DNA of 64,000 nt from Streptomyces sp. HUAS ZL42 (GTDB lineage: Bacteria; Actinomycetota; Actinomycetes; Streptomycetales; Streptomycetaceae), in the NCBI RefSeq assembly GCF_040782645.1, contig NZ_CP160403.1, positions 6,793,001-6,857,000 of the forward strand, read 5' to 3'. The notes under the pieces were generated by a model. That model did no database searches. It saw nothing but the letters and a program-made list of their open reading frames with translations, and was not told the origin of the DNA. This document shows positions 45,141 to 55,338 of the stretch, one piece after another (position 1 is the stretch's first letter; every line of letters starts with the position of its first letter). The translations under genes were made by a program, and so were the position numbers.

Positions 45141-47222
45141 GTGACGAACGGGGCGGGAGGCCGACGCGGCGTGGCGGATGCGGAGCACAACGGGCGAACG
45201 GCGGAAGCGCTCGGAGCAACGGCCGTCGGCGCGGCCGGCGCACGTGTGCGCATGGCGCGGCTGGGCCTGTGGCTGGTCGCCGCCGTCCTCGCCGTACGGC
45301 AGATGACCCTCGTCCTCAGCACCCCGCGGGGCGAGCGGCTGACCGCCCTGGAGACCTGGGTCGGCCCCGAAGGCGTCCTGCACGTCAAGGGCTCCCTCTA
45401 CGAATCCACACAATTCACCGGCACCCCCTTCGGCGGGCTGGTCCTCAAGCCCCTCACCCGCTCGGCCGAACAGGCCCTCGGCTGGGGCTGGACCTTCGGC
45501 ACGCTGCTGCTGGTCGCCGCACTCGGCGTGCTCGCCGCGAGAGCCCTGCCGCAACCGGTGAGCCGTCTGACGTCGCTGCTGGCGGCCCCGGTGGCGATCA
45601 GCCTCCTCATGCTCTCGCTGCCCGTGCGCAACACCCTGTGGCTTGGCCAGACGAGCATCATGCCGGTGCTGCTCGTGCTGGTGGGCTGCTTCGCCGTACG
45701 CGGGGAGCGCGCCAGCGGCCTGTGCGTCGGCTTCGCGGCCGCGCTGCAGCCCGCGTTGCTGCTGTTCCTCCCGCTGCTGTGGTTCACCGGCCGCCGCCGG
45801 GCCGCGCTGACAACGGGCGTCACGTTCGCCGCGCTGACCGTGCTCGCGTGGGCCGCGATGCCGCACGACTCGTACGCCTACTGGGTGCACCACATGGCGG
45901 GCGCGGGCCTCGGCGGCGAGGCGGACGACCTGGCCAACCAGTCCCTGCACGGCGCACTGCTGCGGCTGGGACTGACCGGACCGCTGGAAATCGGCCTGTT
46001 CCTGGCGCTGGGCGCCGTCGTGGCCGTACTCGGCGTGCGGCGCGCCGTGCACTACGCCCACGACGGCCAGCTCCTCCTCGCCGTCGCGATCACCGGCTGC
46101 GCGGCCATCGCGGTCTCGCCCACGACGTGGCAGCACCAGCTGCTGTGGGTGCTGCTCGCGGTCGTGGGCCGGGTGGGCAGGCGCGCCTCGGACCGCTACG
46201 TCTGGCCGGTGGCCGTGATCCTGGTGATGACCCTCCCGGCGAAGATGATGCTGCCGAACATGGCGGCGCTCTACCCGCTGCGGGACAACGCGGTCCTGCT
46301 GGCCGCACTGGCCGCCGCGACCCTCGTACCCTTCCTGTCCCGCACCTCCCCGTACTACCGGTCCCCGATCCCGAGGGAGTACGCCCCTCCGGTCCCGACC
46401 CGTTTCCGCCGCGTCCCGCTGCTGCCGTACCTGCGCAGGGTCCTCACGCGCCCGAATCTGCTGCTGGAGCTGCTGCTGATCCGTGTCACGTATGCGGCCT
46501 ACCAGAAGGTCCGCCTGGCGGCGACCGGCGGCAGCAACTCGAAGGGACGGGGGAAGGCCGAGGCGCACGGTCAGGACATCCTGGATCTGGAGCGCGGGCT
46601 GCACCTGGACATCGAGCACTGGGTGAACCACGCGGTGGTGAGGGTCGACTGGCTCCGCAACTTCTTCGACTTCTACTACGAGTCCTTCCACTTCGTGGTC
46701 CCACTGAGCGTGCTCGCCGTCCTGTACTGGCGCCGACCGGTCGACTACCGATGGGCACGCTCGGCCCTGGGCTTCGCGACCTTGCTCGCCCTGGTGGGTT
46801 TCTGGCTGTATCCGCTGGCTCCGCCCCGGCTGATGCCGACGCTGGGGATCATCGACACGGTGCACGGCGTGCAGGACTTCTCGAAGCCGGACTACGGGAC
46901 GCTGACGGCGCTGACCAATCAGTACGCGGCGATGCCGTCGCTGCATTTCGGGTGGTCGCTGTGGTGCGGGGTCGTCATCGCCATCGTGGCGCCCAAGTGG
47001 TGGATGAAGGCGCTGGGACTGCTGCACCCCTTCTTCACGCTGTCGGCGATCGTGGCGACCGGTAATCACTGGGTGCTGGATGCGGTGGGGGGTGCGGCGG
47101 TCGTCGCGGCGGGGTTCGGGCTGACGTTTGCGTTGCAGGGGCCTCGGGGGCGGGGGGTCGTGGCTGTGGAGGAAGGCAGAAGGGAGACGGTGGTGCTGGA
47201 GAAGGACGGGGCTGCGAAATGA
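45141..47222 (+). CDS. Bifunctional glycosyltransferase 87 / PAP2 phosphatase
   Basis: 693 residues from the GTG at 45141; an in-frame GTG at 45171 behind GGGAGG is an alternative start. The first ~400 residues are a multispan GT87-type mannosyltransferase: an acidic first loop, SLLMLSLPVRNTLWLGQTSI, CVGFAAALQPALLLFLPLLW and QHQLLWVLLAV. From about 450 on is a PAP2/InsP-ceramide-synthase-like lipid phosphatase with HGQDILDLERGLHLDIE, PPRLMP, AMPSLHFGWSLW (about 596-608) and GNHWVLDAVGG (about 640-650); the catalytic His residues are present. The fusion probably handles polyprenyl-phosphate-linked mannose or lipoglycan precursors. It is followed by an AT-richer gap before the RHS gene. Confidence 0.88.
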   Translation: MTNGAGGRRGVADAEHNGRTAEALGATAVGAAGARVRMARLGLWLVAAVLAVRQMTLVLSTPRGERLTALETWVGPEGVLHVKGSLYESTQFTGTPFGGLVLKPLTRSAEQALGWGWTFGTLLLVAALGVLAARALPQPVSRLTSLLAAPVAISLLMLSLPVRNTLWLGQTSIMPVLLVLVGCFAVRGERASGLCVGFAAALQPALLLFLPLLWFTGRRRAALTTGVTFAALTVLAWAAMPHDSYAYWVHHMAGAGLGGEADDLANQSLHGALLRLGLTGPLEIGLFLALGAVVAVLGVRRAVHYAHDGQLLLAVAITGCAAIAVSPTTWQHQLLWVLLAVVGRVGRRASDRYVWPVAVILVMTLPAKMMLPNMAALYPLRDNAVLLAALAAATLVPFLSRTSPYYRSPIPREYAPPVPTRFRRVPLLPYLRRVLTRPNLLLELLLIRVTYAAYQKVRLAATGGSNSKGRGKAEAHGQDILDLERGLHLDIEHWVNHAVVRVDWLRNFFDFYYESFHFVVPLSVLAVLYWRRPVDYRWARSALGFATLLALVGFWLYPLAPPRLMPTLGIIDTVHGVQDFSKPDYGTLTALTNQYAAMPSLHFGWSLWCGVVIAIVAPKWWMKALGLLHPFFTLSAIVATGNHWVLDAVGGAAVVAAGFGLTFALQGPRGRGVVAVEEGRRETVVLEKDGAAK

Positions 47223-47578: not shown

Positions 47579-50500
47579 GTGCGTCACAGACCTGTGGCAC
47601 ATGGCAGTTCGAGATTCAGACGTGCCCGTCAGTCGCGGTGGCTGCGGCAGCTGGCCGTCGGCGTGGTGCTGGCGATGGCGGCCCAGAGCGCACTGGTCGT
47701 GGGGGGCACCGGCACCGCATCCGCACAGCCCGCCTCGGCAAAGGCAAAGGCAAAGCCAAAAGCGTTGGGTCCTGCGCAGGCCCAGGACGATGCGTCGGCG
47801 ATGCTGATGGCCCGCCTTCAGCACCGCAGGATCGAGGTGCTGTCCGCTCGTACCGCCGACTCGACGACGTACGCGCTGCCCGGCGGGGAGCTGCAGACGG
47901 AGGCGTACGCCGGTCCGATCCGGGTGAAGCAGGGCGGGACCTGGAAGGCCATCGACACCTCGCTGTCGGACACGGGCGCCGATCTCACGCCGGCCGCGGC
48001 GGCCGCGGACGTCACGGTGTCCGACGGCGGCGACACGAAGCTCGCCTCGGTCACCAAGGGCAAGCAGTCCTTCGGGCTGGGCTGGGGCGCCAAGCTGCCC
48101 GCCCCGTCCGTCAAGGACAGCACCGCCTCTTACGCGCTGGGCAGCGGCCAGACCCTGTCGGTCACCGCGCTGGCGCAGGGCTTCTCCGAGAACATCAAGC
48201 TCGCCCGGAAGCCCGACGGCGCCTCCCCTGCGTACCGCATCCCGCTGAACCTGCACGGGTTGAAGCTGTCCCAGGCGGACTCCGGTCACCTGCTGCTGAA
48301 GGACTCCGCCGGCAAGCTGGTCGCCGAGGCGCCCGCGCCGATGATGTGGGACGCCAGCAAGGACGAGGCGTCCGGTGAGTCCGCGCACCAGGTACGGGTC
48401 GCGACGAGGATCGAGACCGCGTCGGACGGTTCGCAGACCCTGGTCCTCACCCCCGACAAGGACTTCTTGGCGTCGGCCACCTATCCGGTGACGGTCGACC
48501 CGACCACCACCCTCGCCGTGACCACGGACACGTGGGTGCAGAACCCGGACTACCCCGACTCGCAGATCTCCTCGGAGGAGTTGAAGTCGGGCACGTACGA
48601 CGGCGGGACGGACACGGCCCGTTCGTACCTGAAGTTCGACGTGTCGAAGTTCACCGGCAAGCACATCACCGCCGCGACGATGTCGCTGTACAACTACTAC
48701 TCGGCGACCTGCTCCACCTCGGGCGCCGCCACTCAGGCCCGCCGGATCACCTCGACGTGGTCGTCCTCGTCGATCACCTGGGGCGCTCAGCCGTCGACCA
48801 CGACGACCGGGGTGGCGACCAACACCGGGCACTGGGGCTACTCCTCGTCCTGCCCGGCGAACTGGTCCAACTGGAACCTGCAGACCATCGTTCAGGCGTG
48901 GGCCGACGGCTCGACCAACTACGGCCTGCAGGTCCGCAGCGCCGACGAGACCGACTCCACCACCTGGCGGCGCTTCCGTTCGGCGAACTACTCGACGTCC
49001 GGGTACGCGCCGAAGCTGGTGGTGACCTACAACTCGTACGCCACCACGTCCTCGGCGGCGATCTCGCCGTCGCAGGTCAACGCCTACAACGGCAAGCGGT
49101 ACGTGACCTCCCTGACGCCGAGCCTGTCGGCGAAGGTGACGGACGCGGACGGCGGCAACGCCCAGGGCCAGTTCGAGATCACCGCGGACCCGGCGTACGC
49201 GGACACCACGTACTCGTACACGGCGTACGGCAAGACGGTGGCCTCCGGCTCCACCTCCACCCTGACGGTGTCGTCGGCGAATGCCTTCCCCGCGGGCAAG
49301 CACCTGCGCTTCCGGGTGCGGGCGTACGACGGCACCGACTTCGGGGCCTGGTCCGGCTACACGACGTTCACGCTGAACACTGCGCTGCCCGTCGCGCCCA
49401 CCATCTCCTGCACCCCGTACAGCGAGAACACCTGGACGGCGAAGTCCGGTAGCGGCGCCACCTGCACGCTGGACACGTCCTCGACCGACGGCATGGGCTT
49501 CTACTGGGGCCTGGACGACTCCTCGGTGCCCAACCGGGTGTACGACACGACCGACGGCACGGGCGGCGACCCGCTGACGATCACGATCAATCCCGGCGAG
49601 GACTGGCACAAGCTGTACGCCAAGACCGTCGACTCCGGCGGCAACCTGTCCACGGCCACCACCTCCTACGCCTTCGGCGTCGGCGACGGGGCCGGTCTGC
49701 TCACCCCGGGCGAGGGCGACACGGCCGCACGCCGGGTCAGCCTGACGTCGACCGGCAAGACGACGTACACGGGTGTGACGTACCAGTACCGTCGCGGTGA
49801 GACCGACTCCTGGCACGACGTGCCGGTCGCGGACGTCACCAAGTCGTCGGACGGCTCCGCCGTCTCCGCCTGGCCGGTCACGGTCACGAGCGGCAGCCCG
49901 GCAGCGCTCACCTGGAACGTGACGACCTCGCTCACCGAGGACGGTCCCGTCGACATCCGCGCGGCCTTCACCGACGGCACCACCACCGCGTACTCCCAGC
50001 CGCACACCATCACCGTGGACCGCAAGGCCGGCACGGCGCCCACCGAGCAGGTGGGGCCGGGCGAGGTCAACACGCTCACCGGTGACTTCACGCTCTCCGG
50101 CACCGACGCGTCGGCGTTCGGTCTGACCGCCTCGCGCACCGCCTCCTCCCGCCGGCCCGCTGCCGGTGCGGACGCCGAGGGCCAGGTGGCGATCTACGGC
50201 CCGCAGTGGACCTCGGGCACGACGGCCCAACTCACCGATTCGGACTGGGCCTACGTCCGCAAGACCTCCGCGACCTCGGTCGCCCTGGTTGACGCCGATG
50301 ACGACGAGACCGGGTTCACCGCCACTTCCTCCGGTGGCTGGAAGCCCGAGCCGGGCTCGGAGAACCTCACCCTCACCGGCTCGCTGACCGGTTCCTTCAC
50401 GCTGAAGGACGACCAGGGCACCACGACCACCTTTGCGAAGGTGGACTCGGCGGCGACGACCTGGCAGGTCTCCACCACCCAGCTGCCCACTGACAACTCC

Positions 50501-53500
50501 ACCACCAAGGTCGTCTCGGAGAAGGTCACTTCGGGAACCAGCACCCTGGCCCGCCCGAAGTACGTGATCGCCCCCACCTCGGCGGTGTCGTCCTCGACGT
50601 GTGAGAGCACGCCGGCGACGAAGGGCTGCCGCATGCTGGAGTTCGTCTACGCGACCACCATCACCGCCACGTCGAGCACGCTCGGCGACTACAACGGCCA
50701 GGTCAAGCAGATCAAGGAGTGGGCCACCGACCCGGGCGCCTCGGCGGCGACCGCGACAGTGGTCGCTCAGTACTCCTACGACGACTCCGGCCGACTGCGC
50801 GAGGAGTGGGACCCGCGGATCAGCCCCGCGCTGAAAACCGCCTACACCTACGATTCCGCGGGTCGCGTCGCCACCCTGACCCCGCCCGGCGAACTGCCGT
50901 GGACCTTCACCTACGGCCAGGCCGGCAACGCGGCCACCGCCGGTGCCGGCATGTTGCTCAAGGCCTCCCGGCCGAACCTGACCGCGGGCACGAAGAGCAC
51001 CACCGACGGCACGACGGCGACCACCAGCGTGGTGTACGACGTCGCGCTGAGCGGCACCAAGGCGCCCAACGCCATGGGCACTTCGGACGTCGCCGCCTGG
51101 GGCCAGACGGACGTGCCGACGGATGCCACAGCCGTCTTCCCGGCGGACTCCGTTCCGGTGTCGAACACCGGTGGCGATCTGGCCGCGTCCGACTACGAGC
51201 GGGCGACCATCATCTACACCGATGCCTCCGGACGCGAGGTCAACACGGCCACGCCCGGCGGTCACATCAGCACCACCGAGTACGACCGCTTCGGTGACAC
51301 TGTCCGTCAACTTGCCCCTGCCAACCGCGAGTTGGCGCTGGCCACGAGTGGTGACGGACAGGCCGAGCAGGTGGCCCTGAGTATCGACCAGATGACGACT
51401 GCGGACCGTGCCGAGGTGCTGTCCACGAACTCGGTGTACTCCTCGGACGGTCTGCGTGAGACGGACGAGTACGGGCCGCTGCACCTGGTGACCCTGACCT
51501 CGGCGCTCAAGGCCGGCACGGGCGGCACCGACCTCTCCGCGGGTACCGAGGTGGCGGCACGTCAGCACACCGTGAACGTCTACGACGAGGGCCGTCCGAC
51601 CGACGGTTCGGCCGCCGTCTCCAACCAGGTCACCACCAGCAAGGTGGGCGCGTACGTGGACGGCTACCCGACGGACGCGGACGTGCACACCACGACCACC
51701 GTGTACGACTGGGCCAAGGGCCTGCCCACCCAGACGGTCACCGACCCGAACGGCCTGGCGCTGAAGAAGACGACCTGGTACGACTCCCAGGGCCGGGTCA
51801 CCAAGACCAGCCTGCCGAAGTCGTCCGGCTCGGACGCGGGCGCCACGGTGACCACGTACTACTCAGCGACCGGAACCGGCGCCTGCAACGGCCGCCCCGA
51901 CTGGGCCGACCTGCTCTGCACCACCGGCCCCGCGGGTGCCATCACACTCGGCGGCTCGAACCCGTCCGAACTGCCGGTGAAGACGGTCGAGTACGACCGT
52001 TGGGGCAGCCCCGCGAACATGACGGAGACGGCGAACGGCGTCACCCGCACGACCAGCAACGTCTACGACGCCGCCGGCCGGCTCACGAAGATCTCCGTCA
52101 GCGGCGGTGTGGGCACCGCGGTGCCGGACAGCACGATCGCGTACGCCACGGACAGCGGTGACGTGACCACGGTCAGCTCGAACGGCCAGACCATCACCCA
52201 CACCTACGACGCCCTCGGGCGGCAGATCACCTACAACGACGGTGCGGGCAACACGACGAGCACGAGCTATGACGCGCTCGGCCGGCCGGTGAAGACCACC
52301 AACTCCGCCCCGTCCACCACCACCTACACCTACGACACGTCCAAGGACGCGCGCGGCCTGGAGACCTCCCGCACCGACTCGGTCGCCGGCACCTTCGCCG
52401 CGGCCTACGACGCGGACGGCGCCCTCGCCACCGAGTCCCTTCCCGGCGGCTACACCCTGACCGTCGCGCAGGACGAGGCGGGAGACACCAACTCCCGGAT
52501 CTACACCCGTGACAGCGACGGTGCCGTGGTCGCCTCCGACATCGCCGACCGGTCCGCTCTGGGCCAGACGGTCACCGACGCCGGCAGCAACGGCCAGACC
52601 CGCGTCCACAGCTACAGCTATGACGCGTCGGGACGGCTGAGCCGGGCGGACGACACGGACCCGAACGGGGCCTGCACCCGCCGCGACTACACCTTCGACG
52701 ACAACGGCAACCGCACCGCCCTGGCCACCGCGACCAGCGACGTCGGCTCGGCCTGCACGTCGACCGGCGCGACCACCACGTCGTACGCGTACGACAGCGC
52801 GGACCGCCTGGAGACCGCGGGCACGGTCTACGACGCCTTCGGTCGCACCACGACCCAGGCATCAGGCGCGTCCATCGGCTACTACGCCAACGACCTCGTC
52901 CGGCAGCAGACTTCCGGCAGCAGCCGGCAGACCTGGGGCCTGGACGCGGCCGGCCGTCTCGCCACCTGGACCACCGAGACCCAGGGCAGCGACGGCACCT
53001 GGACCCAGACCGGGTCCCGGACGAACCACTACGGCTCGAACAGCGACAGCCCCGACTGGATCCAGGAGGACGGCTCCACCATCACGCGTACCGTCCGGGG
53101 CATCGACGGAGACCTGGACGCCACCACCACCGCCGGCGGGAACACGGTGCTGCAGCTGACCGGCGTTCGCGGCGATGTCATGGTGCAGCTTCCGCTCGAC
53201 ACCACCAAGGCGCCCGTCGCGCTGGCCTACGACGAGTACGGCAACCCTGAGGACAGCACCACCGCCACCCGGTACGGCTGGCTCGGCGCCAAGCAGCGCT
53301 CGAGCGAAACCGTCACCGGCGCGGTCCTCATGGGCGCCCGCCTCTACGACCCCAGCCTCGGACGTTTCCTGTCCACCGACCCCGTCCCGGGACCGGACAC
53401 GGCATACGACTACGCCGGCCAGGATCCCGTCAACCAGACCGATCTGCTGGGCACCTACCGGCACATGAAGATCAGCTGGCACTGGACGTACGTCGACATC

Positions 53501-53728
53501 AAGTTCGACAGAATGGGCACGAACGACGTGCTGGACTACTGGTGGGTGGTCGTGGGTGCCACCGCCGGCATCCCCGTCGTCGGTTGGATCGTGGCCACGG
53601 TGGCCGTCTTCGACTGGGCGCTCGTCGACTCGTACTACCGTCGTGGGTACTGCCTTGGTATCTGGGTGACCTACGCTCATCCCAAGACGCCCCACCCCTA
53701 CCCCTACAAACACGGGTTCTGTCGATGA
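47579..53728 (+). CDS. RHS/YD-repeat polymorphic-toxin-like exported protein with DNRLRE domain
   Basis: 2049 residues, GTG start with GGGAGGGAGC. Order: signal sequence with twin arginines and a hydrophobic helix (1-50, ending near SAQP), an Ala/Lys-rich linker, a beta-rich region, a DNRLRE domain (about 307-484: YLKFDVSKFTGKHI, WGYSSSCPANWSNWNLQTI), fibronectin-like segments, then RHS/YD repeats from about 1060 (AYTYDSAGRVATLTPPG, TYDALGRPVKTTNSA). The RHS core is GARLYDPSLGRFLSTDPVPG up to residue about 1958. After the conserved DLLG comes a 91-residue tip: MKISWHWTYVDIKFDRMGTN, a long hydrophobic stretch and two cysteines. In such proteins the repeats form a shell and the tip is the effector. 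The tip family is unassigned. Confidence 0.9.
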   Translation: MRHRPVAHGSSRFRRARQSRWLRQLAVGVVLAMAAQSALVVGGTGTASAQPASAKAKAKPKALGPAQAQDDASAMLMARLQHRRIEVLSARTADSTTYALPGGELQTEAYAGPIRVKQGGTWKAIDTSLSDTGADLTPAAAAADVTVSDGGDTKLASVTKGKQSFGLGWGAKLPAPSVKDSTASYALGSGQTLSVTALAQGFSENIKLARKPDGASPAYRIPLNLHGLKLSQADSGHLLLKDSAGKLVAEAPAPMMWDASKDEASGESAHQVRVATRIETASDGSQTLVLTPDKDFLASATYPVTVDPTTTLAVTTDTWVQNPDYPDSQISSEELKSGTYDGGTDTARSYLKFDVSKFTGKHITAATMSLYNYYSATCSTSGAATQARRITSTWSSSSITWGAQPSTTTTGVATNTGHWGYSSSCPANWSNWNLQTIVQAWADGSTNYGLQVRSADETDSTTWRRFRSANYSTSGYAPKLVVTYNSYATTSSAAISPSQVNAYNGKRYVTSLTPSLSAKVTDADGGNAQGQFEITADPAYADTTYSYTAYGKTVASGSTSTLTVSSANAFPAGKHLRFRVRAYDGTDFGAWSGYTTFTLNTALPVAPTISCTPYSENTWTAKSGSGATCTLDTSSTDGMGFYWGLDDSSVPNRVYDTTDGTGGDPLTITINPGEDWHKLYAKTVDSGGNLSTATTSYAFGVGDGAGLLTPGEGDTAARRVSLTSTGKTTYTGVTYQYRRGETDSWHDVPVADVTKSSDGSAVSAWPVTVTSGSPAALTWNVTTSLTEDGPVDIRAAFTDGTTTAYSQPHTITVDRKAGTAPTEQVGPGEVNTLTGDFTLSGTDASAFGLTASRTASSRRPAAGADAEGQVAIYGPQWTSGTTAQLTDSDWAYVRKTSATSVALVDADDDETGFTATSSGGWKPEPGSENLTLTGSLTGSFTLKDDQGTTTTFAKVDSAATTWQVSTTQLPTDNSTTKVVSEKVTSGTSTLARPKYVIAPTSAVSSSTCESTPATKGCRMLEFVYATTITATSSTLGDYNGQVKQIKEWATDPGASAATATVVAQYSYDDSGRLREEWDPRISPALKTAYTYDSAGRVATLTPPGELPWTFTYGQAGNAATAGAGMLLKASRPNLTAGTKSTTDGTTATTSVVYDVALSGTKAPNAMGTSDVAAWGQTDVPTDATAVFPADSVPVSNTGGDLAASDYERATIIYTDASGREVNTATPGGHISTTEYDRFGDTVRQLAPANRELALATSGDGQAEQVALSIDQMTTADRAEVLSTNSVYSSDGLRETDEYGPLHLVTLTSALKAGTGGTDLSAGTEVAARQHTVNVYDEGRPTDGSAAVSNQVTTSKVGAYVDGYPTDADVHTTTTVYDWAKGLPTQTVTDPNGLALKKTTWYDSQGRVTKTSLPKSSGSDAGATVTTYYSATGTGACNGRPDWADLLCTTGPAGAITLGGSNPSELPVKTVEYDRWGSPANMTETANGVTRTTSNVYDAAGRLTKISVSGGVGTAVPDSTIAYATDSGDVTTVSSNGQTITHTYDALGRQITYNDGAGNTTSTSYDALGRPVKTTNSAPSTTTYTYDTSKDARGLETSRTDSVAGTFAAAYDADGALATESLPGGYTLTVAQDEAGDTNSRIYTRDSDGAVVASDIADRSALGQTVTDAGSNGQTRVHSYSYDASGRLSRADDTDPNGACTRRDYTFDDNGNRTALATATSDVGSACTSTGATTTSYAYDSADRLETAGTVYDAFGRTTTQASGASIGYYANDLVRQQTSGSSRQTWGLDAAGRLATWTTETQGSDGTWTQTGSRTNHYGSNSDSPDWIQEDGSTITRTVRGIDGDLDATTTAGGNTVLQLTGVRGDVMVQLPLDTTKAPVALAYDEYGNPEDSTTATRYGWLGAKQRSSETVTGAVLMGARLYDPSLGRFLSTDPVPGPDTAYDYAGQDPVNQTDLLGTYRHMKISWHWTYVDIKFDRMGTNDVLDYWWVVVGATAGIPVVGWIVATVAVFDWALVDSYYRRGYCLGIWVTYAHPKTPHPYPYKHGFCR

Positions 53729-53979
53729 CCGTTCTCCTGTCCATCCTCATCGGCGCCCTCGCCGGCGCCGGTGTGGTGGCTGCTTCCCTGCCCGGTCGCT
53801 CCGGTCGGCCGAGCAACTGGCTCAGAGGACTCGGGGTACTGGCTCTCGCCGTCCCGTTCCTCTGGTGGTGGGCACGGAGTACGGATCAGTTCCCGGCCAC
53901 CTTCGGAAGTCTGGCGGTGGTCGAAATAACCGGGCAGACCCATCTGAGAAGGCGCGCCCGGCACACCGGTAACAACTGA
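53725..53979 (+). CDS. Small membrane protein overlapping the RHS gene, candidate immunity protein
   Basis: 84 residues. The ATG overlaps the RHS stop codon (ATGA at 53725), so the two are translated together. Two membrane spans: MTVLLSILIGALAGAGVVAA and WLRGLGVLALAVPFLWWWA. A polar tail of about 30 residues follows (PATFGSLAVVEITGQTHLRR). A tightly coupled small gene right after a polymorphic toxin is most often its immunity gene, and a membrane immunity protein would suit a membrane-active tip. This is inference from position and topology; no known immunity family is recognised. A perfect 14-base-arm terminator follows. Confidence 0.7.
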   Translation: MTVLLSILIGALAGAGVVAASLPGRSGRPSNWLRGLGVLALAVPFLWWWARSTDQFPATFGSLAVVEITGQTHLRRRARHTGNN

Positions 53980-53993
53980 CACAACCCCGCAAG

Positions 53994-54025
53994 CGTGCCG
54001 CCGATGCGTCTGCATCGGCGGCACG
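53994..54025. terminator. Bidirectional terminator between the RHS unit and the Imm1-like gene
   Basis: CGTGCCGCCGATGC (53994-54007) and GCATCGGCGGCACG (54012-54025) are perfect 14-base arms with a 4-base loop, 14 bases after the small membrane gene and 45 before the stop of the convergent Imm1-like gene. Confidence 0.85.
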
Positions 54026-54070
54026 TGTGCGTCTGGGGACTGCGGCGGTGCAGGCCGTGGCCGCGCAGGG

Positions 54071-54472
54071 CTACAACTCCCACCACTCGCCCAGATCGCT
54101 GGGCGCACCTGTCTGGATGAAGTGGCGCAGGAGGGCCCACGCGCGATCGACGTTCAGGACGAAGCCACCAGTGAATGCTGCCAGTTCGTCCATGATCGGG
54201 ACGTCGGCCAAGGTGCCCGAGGGGGCGGTGCCGTCTCCCACGAGAAGGGACACTCCCTCAGCCTCACTGAAGAGATGGATGACTGCGTGATCACCTCGGA
54301 ATCCGAGGGCCAACGTAGGAGAGTCGCTGTCTGGCAAGCGAACTTCGAGGTATCCCTGGCCACGGGAACGCAGTTCGCTGAAGCGGTCCGAGAGATCTCT
54401 GAGGTCCGAGCGTCTCTCAACCTCGGAGAACCGTCCCGATTCCGGCGACGTCGCCGCCCACACCGCGCTCAT
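54071..54472 (-). CDS. Imm1-like immunity-type protein
   Basis: 133 residues from the ATG at 54472, which overlaps the stop of the upstream lipoprotein gene (ATGA). The core strands GYLEVRLPDSDSPTLALGFR and HAVIHLFSEAEGVSLLVGDG then DVPIMDELAAFTGGFVLNVD, ending HFIQTGAPSDLGEWWEL, match my picture of the Imm1 family. These are alpha/beta proteins that neutralise polymorphic-toxin domains (often deaminases) in the cytoplasm. No cognate deaminase toxin is adjacent: the nearby RHS tip is on the other strand and looks membrane-active. It may therefore be an orphan immunity gene or be used for another purpose. Confidence 0.7.
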   Translation of the reverse strand: MSAVWAATSPESGRFSEVERRSDLRDLSDRFSELRSRGQGYLEVRLPDSDSPTLALGFRGDHAVIHLFSEAEGVSLLVGDGTAPSGTLADVPIMDELAAFTGGFVLNVDRAWALLRHFIQTGAPSDLGEWWEL

Positions 54473-55338
54473 CGCTGTCCGCGCTGCTCGTAGCGCCGCC
54501 ACTGGCGTCCGCCGTCGCGGGAGATCCACAGCCCTTCGCCCTGCACGAGGTCGCCGCGCACACCCTCGCCCTGGGTGAGGGACAGCGCCGTGGTGCCGGC
54601 CCGCGCGGCGAGGACGCCCCCCGCGTAGGGCTTCGGTACGGCCGTGGAGCCAAGGGTGCGACCGTCGCGCTGCCGTACGACGCGGTCGGGGGCGTCGGTC
54701 AGGGACTGGACCAGGCTCCATGCCGTGCCCCGCTCGTCGACGGCGAGGCGGACGGCGTCGTCCGGCACTGCGGCCGGGGGCGCCACGATGCGTCTGGCGG
54801 GGCGGTAGACGAGGGTCGGCTCCACTTCGGTGAGCAGGATGTCGCCGGGCCGGGTGCGTAACGGGGTCTCGGTGATGACGACTTTGTGCCGCTTGCCGCG
54901 TACGTCGAGGGCGTACGTTCCCTCGGCTCCCTCCTCGGGCGGCACCCGCACGAAGTCCCCGCGCACCGCCTTGAACGCGGCCGGCACCGCCTCCGCGTCC
55001 GCGTGTTCCGCGTGCTCGGCGACCGTACGGCCGTCGGGTCCGACGATGCGCCAGGCGGTGGCGGCCGGCCCCTCGTCGTCCTCGACATTGCCGGCGTCGT
55101 ACGTCAGAAGCAGCGAGCCGTCGTCCGCGCGAACCACGCCGGTGGGTGCGCCAGCCGCCTCGATGACGTCGGCGGGGCGCGGGTGAGGTTCTTCGATGAC
55201 GCGCTTGTACTTCGCCTCGCGGTCCCCGGAGGCCCTGTCGTCGGCGCCGCCCGGGCTGCAGGCGGTCAGCACCAGCGCCGCACTCGCCGCGGCCACGAGC
55301 CCGACCGTCCGATCACCGCGTTTCTCCAGCCACGCCAT
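54469..55338 (-). CDS. Lipoprotein, unknown
   Basis: 289 residues from the ATG at 55338 (GAGGAT upstream). Lipobox LVLTAC with cysteine 27 predicts lipidation and export. The body looks like a beta-propeller-type sensor: RIVGPDGRTVAEHAEHADAE, AVRGDFVRVPPEEGAEGTYALDV, DERGTAWSLVQSLTD, and LWISRDGGRQWRRYEQRG near the end, where S-x-D-G-G-x-x-W is an Asp-box motif seen in sialidase/BNR repeats. No catalytic residues are identified. Coupled by ATGA overlap to the Imm1-like gene and 10 bases behind the small ATPase gene, so 55792-54071 is one operon. Confidence 0.82.
   Translation of the reverse strand: MAWLEKRGDRTVGLVAAASAALVLTACSPGGADDRASGDREAKYKRVIEEPHPRPADVIEAAGAPTGVVRADDGSLLLTYDAGNVEDDEGPAATAWRIVGPDGRTVAEHAEHADAEAVPAAFKAVRGDFVRVPPEEGAEGTYALDVRGKRHKVVITETPLRTRPGDILLTEVEPTLVYRPARRIVAPPAAVPDDAVRLAVDERGTAWSLVQSLTDAPDRVVRQRDGRTLGSTAVPKPYAGGVLAARAGTTALSLTQGEGVRGDLVQGEGLWISRDGGRQWRRYEQRGQR

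Follow-up and report, generated by a model that had tools for sequence, protein, structure and literature searches.

Membrane-acting tips of rearrangement hotspot (RHS) toxins that are paired with two-span immunity proteins have so far been worked out for Tse5 of Pseudomonas aeruginosa, a toxin of the Gram-negative type VI secretion system (T6SS). Its immunity protein, Tsi5, has two predicted spans and reverses the depolarisation caused by the C-terminal tip, Tse5-CT (PMC9637101), which is freed by an aspartyl-protease motif, DPXG-X19-DPXG (PMC10684867). The immunity proteins (CdiI) of the ionophore toxins of contact-dependent growth inhibition (CDI) are two-helix hairpins of 72–100 amino acids (aa) (PMC11630599), and in Gram-positives EsxX, TelE and TspA are secreted, membrane-depolarising LXG toxins with glycine zippers and membrane immunity proteins (PMC12744356); these systems and those cited below are compared on partial texts of the papers. 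Here we describe an RHS gene in a 64,000-nucleotide stretch (the window) of the single-contig, 9.87 Mb genome of Streptomyces sp. HUAS ZL42. An initial annotation had proposed that the end of its product is a membrane-targeting or pore-forming effector with a membrane immunity protein, in a toxin–immunity pair of a type it could not assign. By analogy with the systems above, we consider it reasonably likely that this product is a secreted RHS polymorphic toxin whose 91-residue tip, as its toxin domain, attacks competitors at their cytoplasmic membrane, and that the 84-aa, two-span protein encoded behind it guards its maker. The features on which this reading draws are as follows.

47579..53728, plus strand: RHS/WapA-type secreted polymorphic toxin gene, an open reading frame (ORF) of 2049 aa with a GTG start
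53228..53452, plus strand: RHS core, residues 1884–1958, ending DPVNQTDLLG (TIGR03696)
53453..53725, plus strand: tip (putative toxin domain), 91 aa, residues 1959–2049, directly after the RHS core, with relatives found
53486..53527, plus strand: tip residues 12–25, TYVDIKFDRMGTND, a probable strand with the pattern [VI]x[VIL]x[FLVA][NDS][KR] common to other tips
53540..53626, plus strand: tip residues 30–58, a hydrophobic hairpin-like stretch with central Pro41 and one charge, Asp54 (from hydrophobicity and the link to L129 over residues 32–70)
53645..53653, plus strand: GxC motif, Gly65 and Cys67, invariant in the eight tips of alignment A3
53720..53722, plus strand: Cys90, the terminal Cys, invariant in the eight tips of A3, absent in cluster member L055
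53725..53979, plus strand: partner gene, 84 aa, probable immunity protein (ATGA overlap with the RHS stop; homologues P0007–P0013; alignment A1)
53725..53790, plus strand: partner span 1, residues 1–22, clear (hydrophobicity up to 2.47, 17-residue window)
53821..53874, plus strand: partner span 2, residues 33–50, borderline (hydrophobicity 1.42), ending LWWWA
53881..53907, plus strand: TDQFPATFG, partner residues 53–61, invariant in 7 of 7 rows of A1

RHS repeats (PF05593) and an RHS-associated core (TIGR03696) directly precede the tip, as expected of an RHS polymorphic toxin. The TIGR03696 match stops at residue 1958, so the tip comprises residues 1959–2049, and the 91 residues with two cysteines first annotated behind the core are indeed there (Cys67 and Cys90 in tip numbering). 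The N-terminal part of the tip is rich in Trp, Tyr and His, and its hydrophobicity reaches a maximum of 2.04 (Kyte–Doolittle, 19-residue window). The uncharged hydrophobic run covers residues 30–53, and hydrophobicity extends to residue 58; the stretch of about 30 residues in the initial annotation corresponds to the 30 residues between Asp28 and Asp59, but calling it continuous was slightly generous because Asp54 lies inside the run. The ATG of the partner gene (53725–53727) overlaps the RHS stop codon TGA (53726–53728) in an ATGA, also as annotated, and the frames of tip and partner are both open. The position directly behind a tip is the usual place of immunity genes. On hydrophobicity, the 84-aa partner agrees with the two-span immunity protein expected of a Tse5-type pair; of the two spans originally called, the first is clear and the second borderline.

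In layout, the locus is like Tse5/Tsi5, with an RHS shell, a tip without an enzyme signature, predicted membrane segments and a small two-span immunity protein (PMC9637101, PMC10684867). However, the T6SS effector Tse5 begins with a PAAR-like part and its tip is 149 residues long, whereas the window's protein combines a probable signal peptide and a DNRLRE/CBM96 domain with a tip of 91 residues that has a Cys pair. No sequence homology to Tse5 was found in the Protein Data Bank (PDB) with the tip or a tip profile, the cryo-electron microscopy entry of Tse5 being presumed in the set; the two matches that the profile gave (E 0.97 and 1.3) were at chance level, and Tse5 was not among them. The CDI ionophore toxins likewise have membrane-acting tips, and the 84-aa partner lies within the size range of CdiI (PMC11630599), but the ionophore domain of CdiA-CT is predicted to form a bundle of five helices and comes with an entry domain of its own, and a 91-residue tip would seem too small for this. 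The extended zipper of LXG toxins, (G/A/S)xxxGxxxG or GxxxGxxx(G/S/T) (PMC12744356), is absent from the tip, which has only one GxxxG, Gly35–Gly39. Among Streptomyces umbrella toxins, the ‘4TM tox’ is also a membrane-type polymorphic tip and UmbC2 is predicted to be pore-forming, but ‘4TM tox’ rides on ALF-repeat UmbC proteins and has four spans by name, which sets it apart from the window's tip as far as its description goes (PMC11062931). The W-TIP domain is another small hydrophobic polymorphic-toxin tip with two predicted membrane helices; in contrast to the window's tip, which lacks the TIP tripeptide, it has RxxR and W-TIP motifs and is described from proteobacteria only (PMC3482391). 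Imm17, an immunity family with two transmembrane helices and presumed among the Pfam models, was not matched by the partner (P0003), whose single Pfam row was BPD_transp_1, below cut-off. Taken together, the pair probably works like Tse5/Tsi5, the CDI ionophores and EsxX/TspA, by analogy of layout; no sequence-family membership in Tse5, CDI ionophore or LXG toxins was found.

To place the tip, RHS cores were searched in two sets of genomes: 16 of 61 had matches at E <= 1e-10, and 71 of 295 from the genus had them at E <= 1e-20. Without duplicate sites, sites where a contig ends and two core matches that were partial, this gave 120 loci (L054–L173, window included), 49 directly from the searches and 71 fetched. 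Tips were obtained from all 120, 118 of them distinct; eight outside 60–200 aa were left out, and the remaining 110 together with two database homologues formed a set of 112 distinct tips. These fell into 46 BLAST clusters (E <= 1e-3), indicating that tips vary on a shared core. The largest cluster, with 14 members, contains the window's tip, both of its homologues and 11 further tips. They are linked through L129, matched by the window's tip at E 2.4e-4 and by the S. mirabilis tip at 5.9e-5 over residues 32–70; L129 and the window's tip share AGIPVVGW[IL]VA, then G-x-C-L. A profile of the window tips scored 28.2 against the ten other cluster members (the interrupted L104 excluded), the best of 60 column shuffles reaching 19.9. 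The best of the 45 other groups against the window tips was L154 (score 22.5), and window plus L154 matched the cluster with 92.4% probability, with 0 of 40 shuffles as good.

Eight tips could be aligned (A3, the window's tip being one of the eight rows and itself carrying Gly65, Cys67, Trp71 and the terminal Cys), with Ser8, Gly65, Cys67, Trp71 and Cys90 invariant in window numbering. Most A3 tips have a [VI]x[VIL]x[FLVA][NDS][KR] segment ahead of the hydrophobic stretch, a pattern spotted by eye in A3 and the secreted proteins described below. Across the 112 tips, 25 have a Cys 19–43 residues ahead of a Cys that lies <=4 residues from the end; four of these (L062, L162, L164 and L165) are of other kinds. 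L141 and the trio L086/L096/L102 are weaker members of the group (80% and 38%) and have longer partners. These comparisons allow the tip to be assigned to a wider group of Streptomyces tips with the plan hydrophobic stretch–GxC–terminal Cys, for which there is no library model. The tip is thus no longer of a type that cannot be assigned; its partner has no convincing kin among the nine partner groups compared.

We next looked at what follows these tips. In the BLAST-defined cluster, a small ORF with at least two hydrophobic segments lies behind the tip at 10 of 11 loci, compared with 29 of 96 other tips (Fisher p = 1.4e-4), and any membrane segment at 11/11 compared with 60/96 (p = 0.015). Under a stricter rule the pairing was 9/11 versus 29/98; at L060 this rule took the wrong ORF (161 aa, at +171), a 59-aa two-span ORF sitting at +1. 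The hydrophobicity threshold was 1.4 under the stricter rule and 1.3 in the other counts, and length limits differ too. In a wider group, which includes three non-RHS carriers and leaves out L058 (too little downstream sequence) and L104, small multi-span ORFs (45–170 aa, >=2 hydrophobic segments, start at -30 to +200) follow 22 of 24 tips, as against 39 of 88 other tips (p = 2e-5); of 720 positions taken at random within these loci, 71 have one. The two misses are L184, a tip fragment, and L142, whose ORF of 57–59 aa resembles by eye those of L097, L098 and L110 and has a sub-threshold second segment. These p-values are too small because the rows are related, and many partners had already been viewed before the BLAST clustering and before the wider group was drawn, the clustering itself using tips only. 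As far as sequence can tell, the tips of the window's group pair preferentially with small membrane ORFs. The rule ‘hydrophobic tip, then small two-span partner’ is weak, holding in 21/43 versus 17/66 (p = 0.02); a Cys pair with G or K two residues before the first Cys gave 12/19 versus 27/88 (p = 0.016).

Some partners are related across tips. Those of L097/L098/L110/L142, of L129 and of L088/L095/L100/L143 are clearly akin (97%, 96% and 88%; 0/30 shuffles as good), and the Gly/Ala-rich tips of L088/L095/L100/L143 have no detectable kinship with the window's tip group (3/40 shuffles as good). That two tip groups draw on one immunity family agrees with a membrane mode of action common to both. 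A separate set of loci (L119, L121, L126, L130 and L135) has Trp/Tyr-rich, non-hydrophobic tips (CATCRVPKHAWTG... in four), each followed by a three-span ORF of 87–101 aa; this tip–partner pair is unassigned.

The same kind of domain appears to occur outside RHS proteins. A profile of the eight tips gave matches at E <= 1 in 33 of 159 genomes, and eight of the weaker ones, below the RHS tips, were examined (L184, L185, L187–L190, L193 and L196). L184 is the tip fragment, L185 a core-less tip with a two-span ORF of 68 aa behind it, and L187, L190 and L196 showed nothing usable on examination. L188, L189 and L193 (E 0.008, 0.010 and 0.15) are secreted-looking proteins with other front parts and open frames of 287–333 aa; their C-terminal domains, near locus positions 1501–1770, end in ...GT[LVA]Y[LF]N[RK]xET...C...C-K, and each is followed by a multi-span ORF (101, 91 and 90 aa at +15, +44 and +24). 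The combined RHS tips (window, cluster, L060 group and L154) matched these three with 95.7% probability (E 9e-9, score 49.5, 0/40 shuffles as good), the seven other tip groups scoring <= 15.1 against the same RHS-tip profile; figures for the three are too good because they were picked from 159 genomes by such a profile and by eye. A search of 150 genomes with the three returned the same three as strong matches and six weak ones (E 0.001–0.009), so non-RHS carriers are not common. The three are possibly stand-alone, bacteriocin-like relatives of the RHS tips. We lean slightly towards an unnamed Streptomyces superfamily of small, mostly Cys-paired, hairpin-inserting membrane toxins that occur as RHS tips and as C-terminal domains of bacteriocin-like secreted precursors, each with a small membrane immunity protein from one of several unrelated families.

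In itself, the window's pair is rare. Among 392 genomes drawn from the genus, the tip query matched at E <= 1e-3 in the source genome only, and a profile of the three close tips found the source genome and then, at best, E 0.003 (L025, a 633-aa frame). A search of 5.77 billion proteins gave three tip matches at E <= 0.1: the window's own, P0005 from S. mirabilis (86% along the 95-residue query) and P0006 (76%). The partner search returned eight proteins including itself, the other seven being 66–82% identical, among them P0008 from S. mirabilis (81%). In both protein searches, the relatives that carry a name are Streptomyces. At E <= 1e-3, a partner profile hit the source genome only in 150 relatives; two scans of genome contigs with a partner pattern gave 592 and 56 stretches with 0 relatives; and tblastn of a plasmid collection with tip and partner gave no match. 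Weak single-sequence partner matches in 22 other genomes (392 searched; E 5e-4 to 1e-2) were taken as chance in membrane proteins. Truncated RHS ends with a window-type tip were also sought among proteins of ~165–525 aa, with 0 at E <= 1 among 28 candidates, so that the contigs of P0007, P0010 and P0012 are not shown to carry a tip. An upstream extension of P0010, read back, had five residues compatible with an overlapping ...HGFCR end and a preceding Lys that was not; it was too degenerate to count.

The S. mirabilis homologues suggest that tip and partner move as a unit. P0005 is 87% identical to the window's protein in the tip, 33–76% in the rest of the body and 42% in the 84 residues before the core, whereas P0006 has 92% identity over the core and 75% over the tip. 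P0005 and P0008 each come from an S. mirabilis contig with a length of 56,623, and we infer that this is one and the same contig; the S. mirabilis tip and partner would thus sit together on a different RHS body. In this one case, tip and partner appear to travel between bodies as a moving cassette. Tips also vary on similar cores: 7 of the nine nearest other cores (59–69% identical) carry tips outside the window's group. Both tip and partner have homologues, as the initial annotation had suggested looking for, and small multi-span ORFs lie behind related tips more often than at random places, so this is more than a chance pair; the tip in an RHS protein lacking the partner, which would have counted against the pair, was found in neither of the two judgeable cases, the window and S. 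mirabilis (with the inferred shared contig), P0006 standing outside this check with no visible gene context. The proposed membrane effector with a membrane immunity protein is thereby supported in part, through a variable tip on a shared body, apparent co-travel and pairing of the group with small membrane ORFs. Overall, the two genes are a real pair with open frames and probably encode a functional membrane toxin and its immunity protein.

How might such a pair work? The RHS shell would carry the tip out of the cell, and the aspartyl-protease end of the core would free it, steps that are known for RHS proteins. The core ends DPVPG...TDLLG, with Asp1934 and Asp1955 resembling the aspartyl-protease pair that frees RHS tips; compared with the Tse5 motif, the Asp residues are 21 apart, not 23, and DLLG stands in place of DPXG (PMC10684867). 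Cleavage at this end is therefore suggested by likeness. The freed tip, presumably held by a Cys67–Cys90 disulfide, would enter the target membrane from the outer side with its hydrophobic hairpin and make the membrane leak, and the two-span protein in the maker's own membrane would block insertion or assembly; these steps follow the analogy with Tse5/Tsi5 (PMC9637101), the CDI ionophores and CdiI (PMC11630599) and EsxX/TspA (PMC12744356). The targets would be competing bacteria, most likely other Streptomyces. A polymorphic tip, its exchange between bodies, its membership in the tip group and its preferential pairing with small membrane ORFs are read from sequence comparison, and depolarisation of the membrane by the tip is what the analogy would predict.

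Several observations weigh against this reading. The hydrophobic run is on the short side for two complete spans and has one charge in it, and the AlphaFold models are poor (pLDDT 58 for the tip, single-sequence, and 60), the tip model showing two helices with strands at both ends at this low confidence. No enzyme or pore-toxin family reached cut-off for tip or partner in Pfam or NCBIfam, neither had a PHROGs match at E <= 0.01, and PDB searches with the window pair gave no meaningful match. A two-span neighbour is not specific, since 39 of 88 other tips likewise have a small membrane ORF behind them. On its own, the Cys-pair rule does not significantly predict a small two-span ORF (12/22 versus 27/85, p = 0.08). 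Nor do all members of the window's BLAST cluster have the Cys pair: L055 shows the GxC without a terminal Cys. Window tips alone showed no link to the L060 group (2/40 shuffles as good) and were unconvincing against L188/L189/L193 (21.9, 1/40 shuffles as good), so that the window's links to the L060 group and the secreted domains rest on intermediate tips. Against nine partner groups, the window's partner had no convincing kin (best L055, 10% over 13 columns, 0/30 shuffles as good; others <= 3%). Finally, the tips of L068, L079, L115 and L124 open with a strong hydrophobic segment, yet their neighbours are soluble and acidic; this cluster is a counter-example to naming hydrophobic tips pore formers.

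A receptor- or precursor-directed toxin, whose tip does not itself form a leak but attaches to a protein of the membrane or a lipid carrier of the cell wall and whose two-span partner masks or mimics that target, would accommodate the short hydrophobic run with its aromatic segments on either side, and also several partner groups without detectable kinship to each other or to the window's, as if they guarded different targets. Nothing indicates a particular receptor, however, the hydrophobic stretch and GxC are common to the aligned tips, and partner groups related across different tips point to one shared kind of target; we regard this alternative as rather unlikely. In a further alternative, the hydrophobic stretch serves entry or translocation, or anchors the RHS protein in the membrane, the tip itself then not being the poison. 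The L068/L079/L115/L124 tips have such a design, with a hydrophobic start, a longer hydrophilic part and a soluble neighbour. The window's tip has only ~33 residues behind its hydrophobic stretch, tips aligned on this plan are complete at 90–133 aa, and the same kind of domain ends secreted non-RHS proteins, which makes this explanation improbable. Least probable is that the 84-aa protein is an accessory factor (for example in secretion or folding) or the pair a decaying remnant: the missing truncated RHS ends, the 53-aa fragment P0013 (left out of the seven-row partner alignment A1) and the gene context of P0007 and P0009–P0013, which is not visible, would allow it, but both frames are open, nine consecutive partner residues are invariant in the seven rows, and the partner appears to move with the tip and occupies the usual immunity position.

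A membrane-directed tip guarded by the two-span protein thus remains the preferred reading, and the window's tip group appears to have no entry in the family libraries searched. Five other tips, three partners and three secreted proteins or domains also reached no cut-off in Pfam or NCBIfam. DUF624, BPD_transp_1, Bfe1, two_anch, SFI toxin and other weak library matches stayed below cut-offs, and 2TM-TIR of PADLOC (E 0.017, a model without a cut-off) was taken as a hydrophobic look-alike. Titles and abstract beginnings of open-licence PMC papers described no Streptomyces RHS tips of the hydrophobic stretch–GxC–Cys plan, which may be numbered in supplementary tables. If the reading is correct, Streptomyces use a separate group of membrane-acting tips, common to RHS proteins and simple secreted precursors. 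They would offer natural toxin–immunity pairs for asking how a tiny domain breaches a membrane and how a protein of 60–85 residues stops it, and annotators could put a name to a recurrent tip that Pfam and NCBIfam left without a family.

The remaining features of the locus lie in the RHS body and behind the partner gene.

47579..47725, plus strand: probable signal peptide of the Sec type, with a basic start, a hydrophobic core and an end that resembles a cleavage site (ASA-Q), called by eye from the sequence
48503..49027, plus strand: CBM96/DNRLRE domain, residues 309–483 (PF24517 in Pfam, NF033679 in NCBIfam)
53993..54026, no strand given: hairpin of 15 pairs, the outermost G-U, a probable terminator without a T-run (from folding and shuffles)

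The strong terminator of the initial annotation holds as a hairpin, the 86-nt stretch folding at -46.2 kcal/mol (z = -4.25, 0/200 shuffles as good), but a consensus terminator scan of the region found nothing because the hairpin has no T-run. An ORF on the opposite strand (54071–54721, no Pfam match) arrives just behind it; were this ORF a gene, the hairpin would work for both directions. Upstream of the RHS gene, the gene at 45141–47222 joins a GT87 glycosyltransferase-type part to a PAP2 phosphatase part. The source genome encodes a second RHS protein (L072, G000:C1:5508204-5508578) with a different, hydrophilic tip that clusters with L073 and L166; the neighbouring ORF, of ~176 aa, has no membrane segments. 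At L108 (G067:C2:140676-142817), two RHS cores with equal match scores are inverted and face each other, as if the C-terminal region had been duplicated or inverted.

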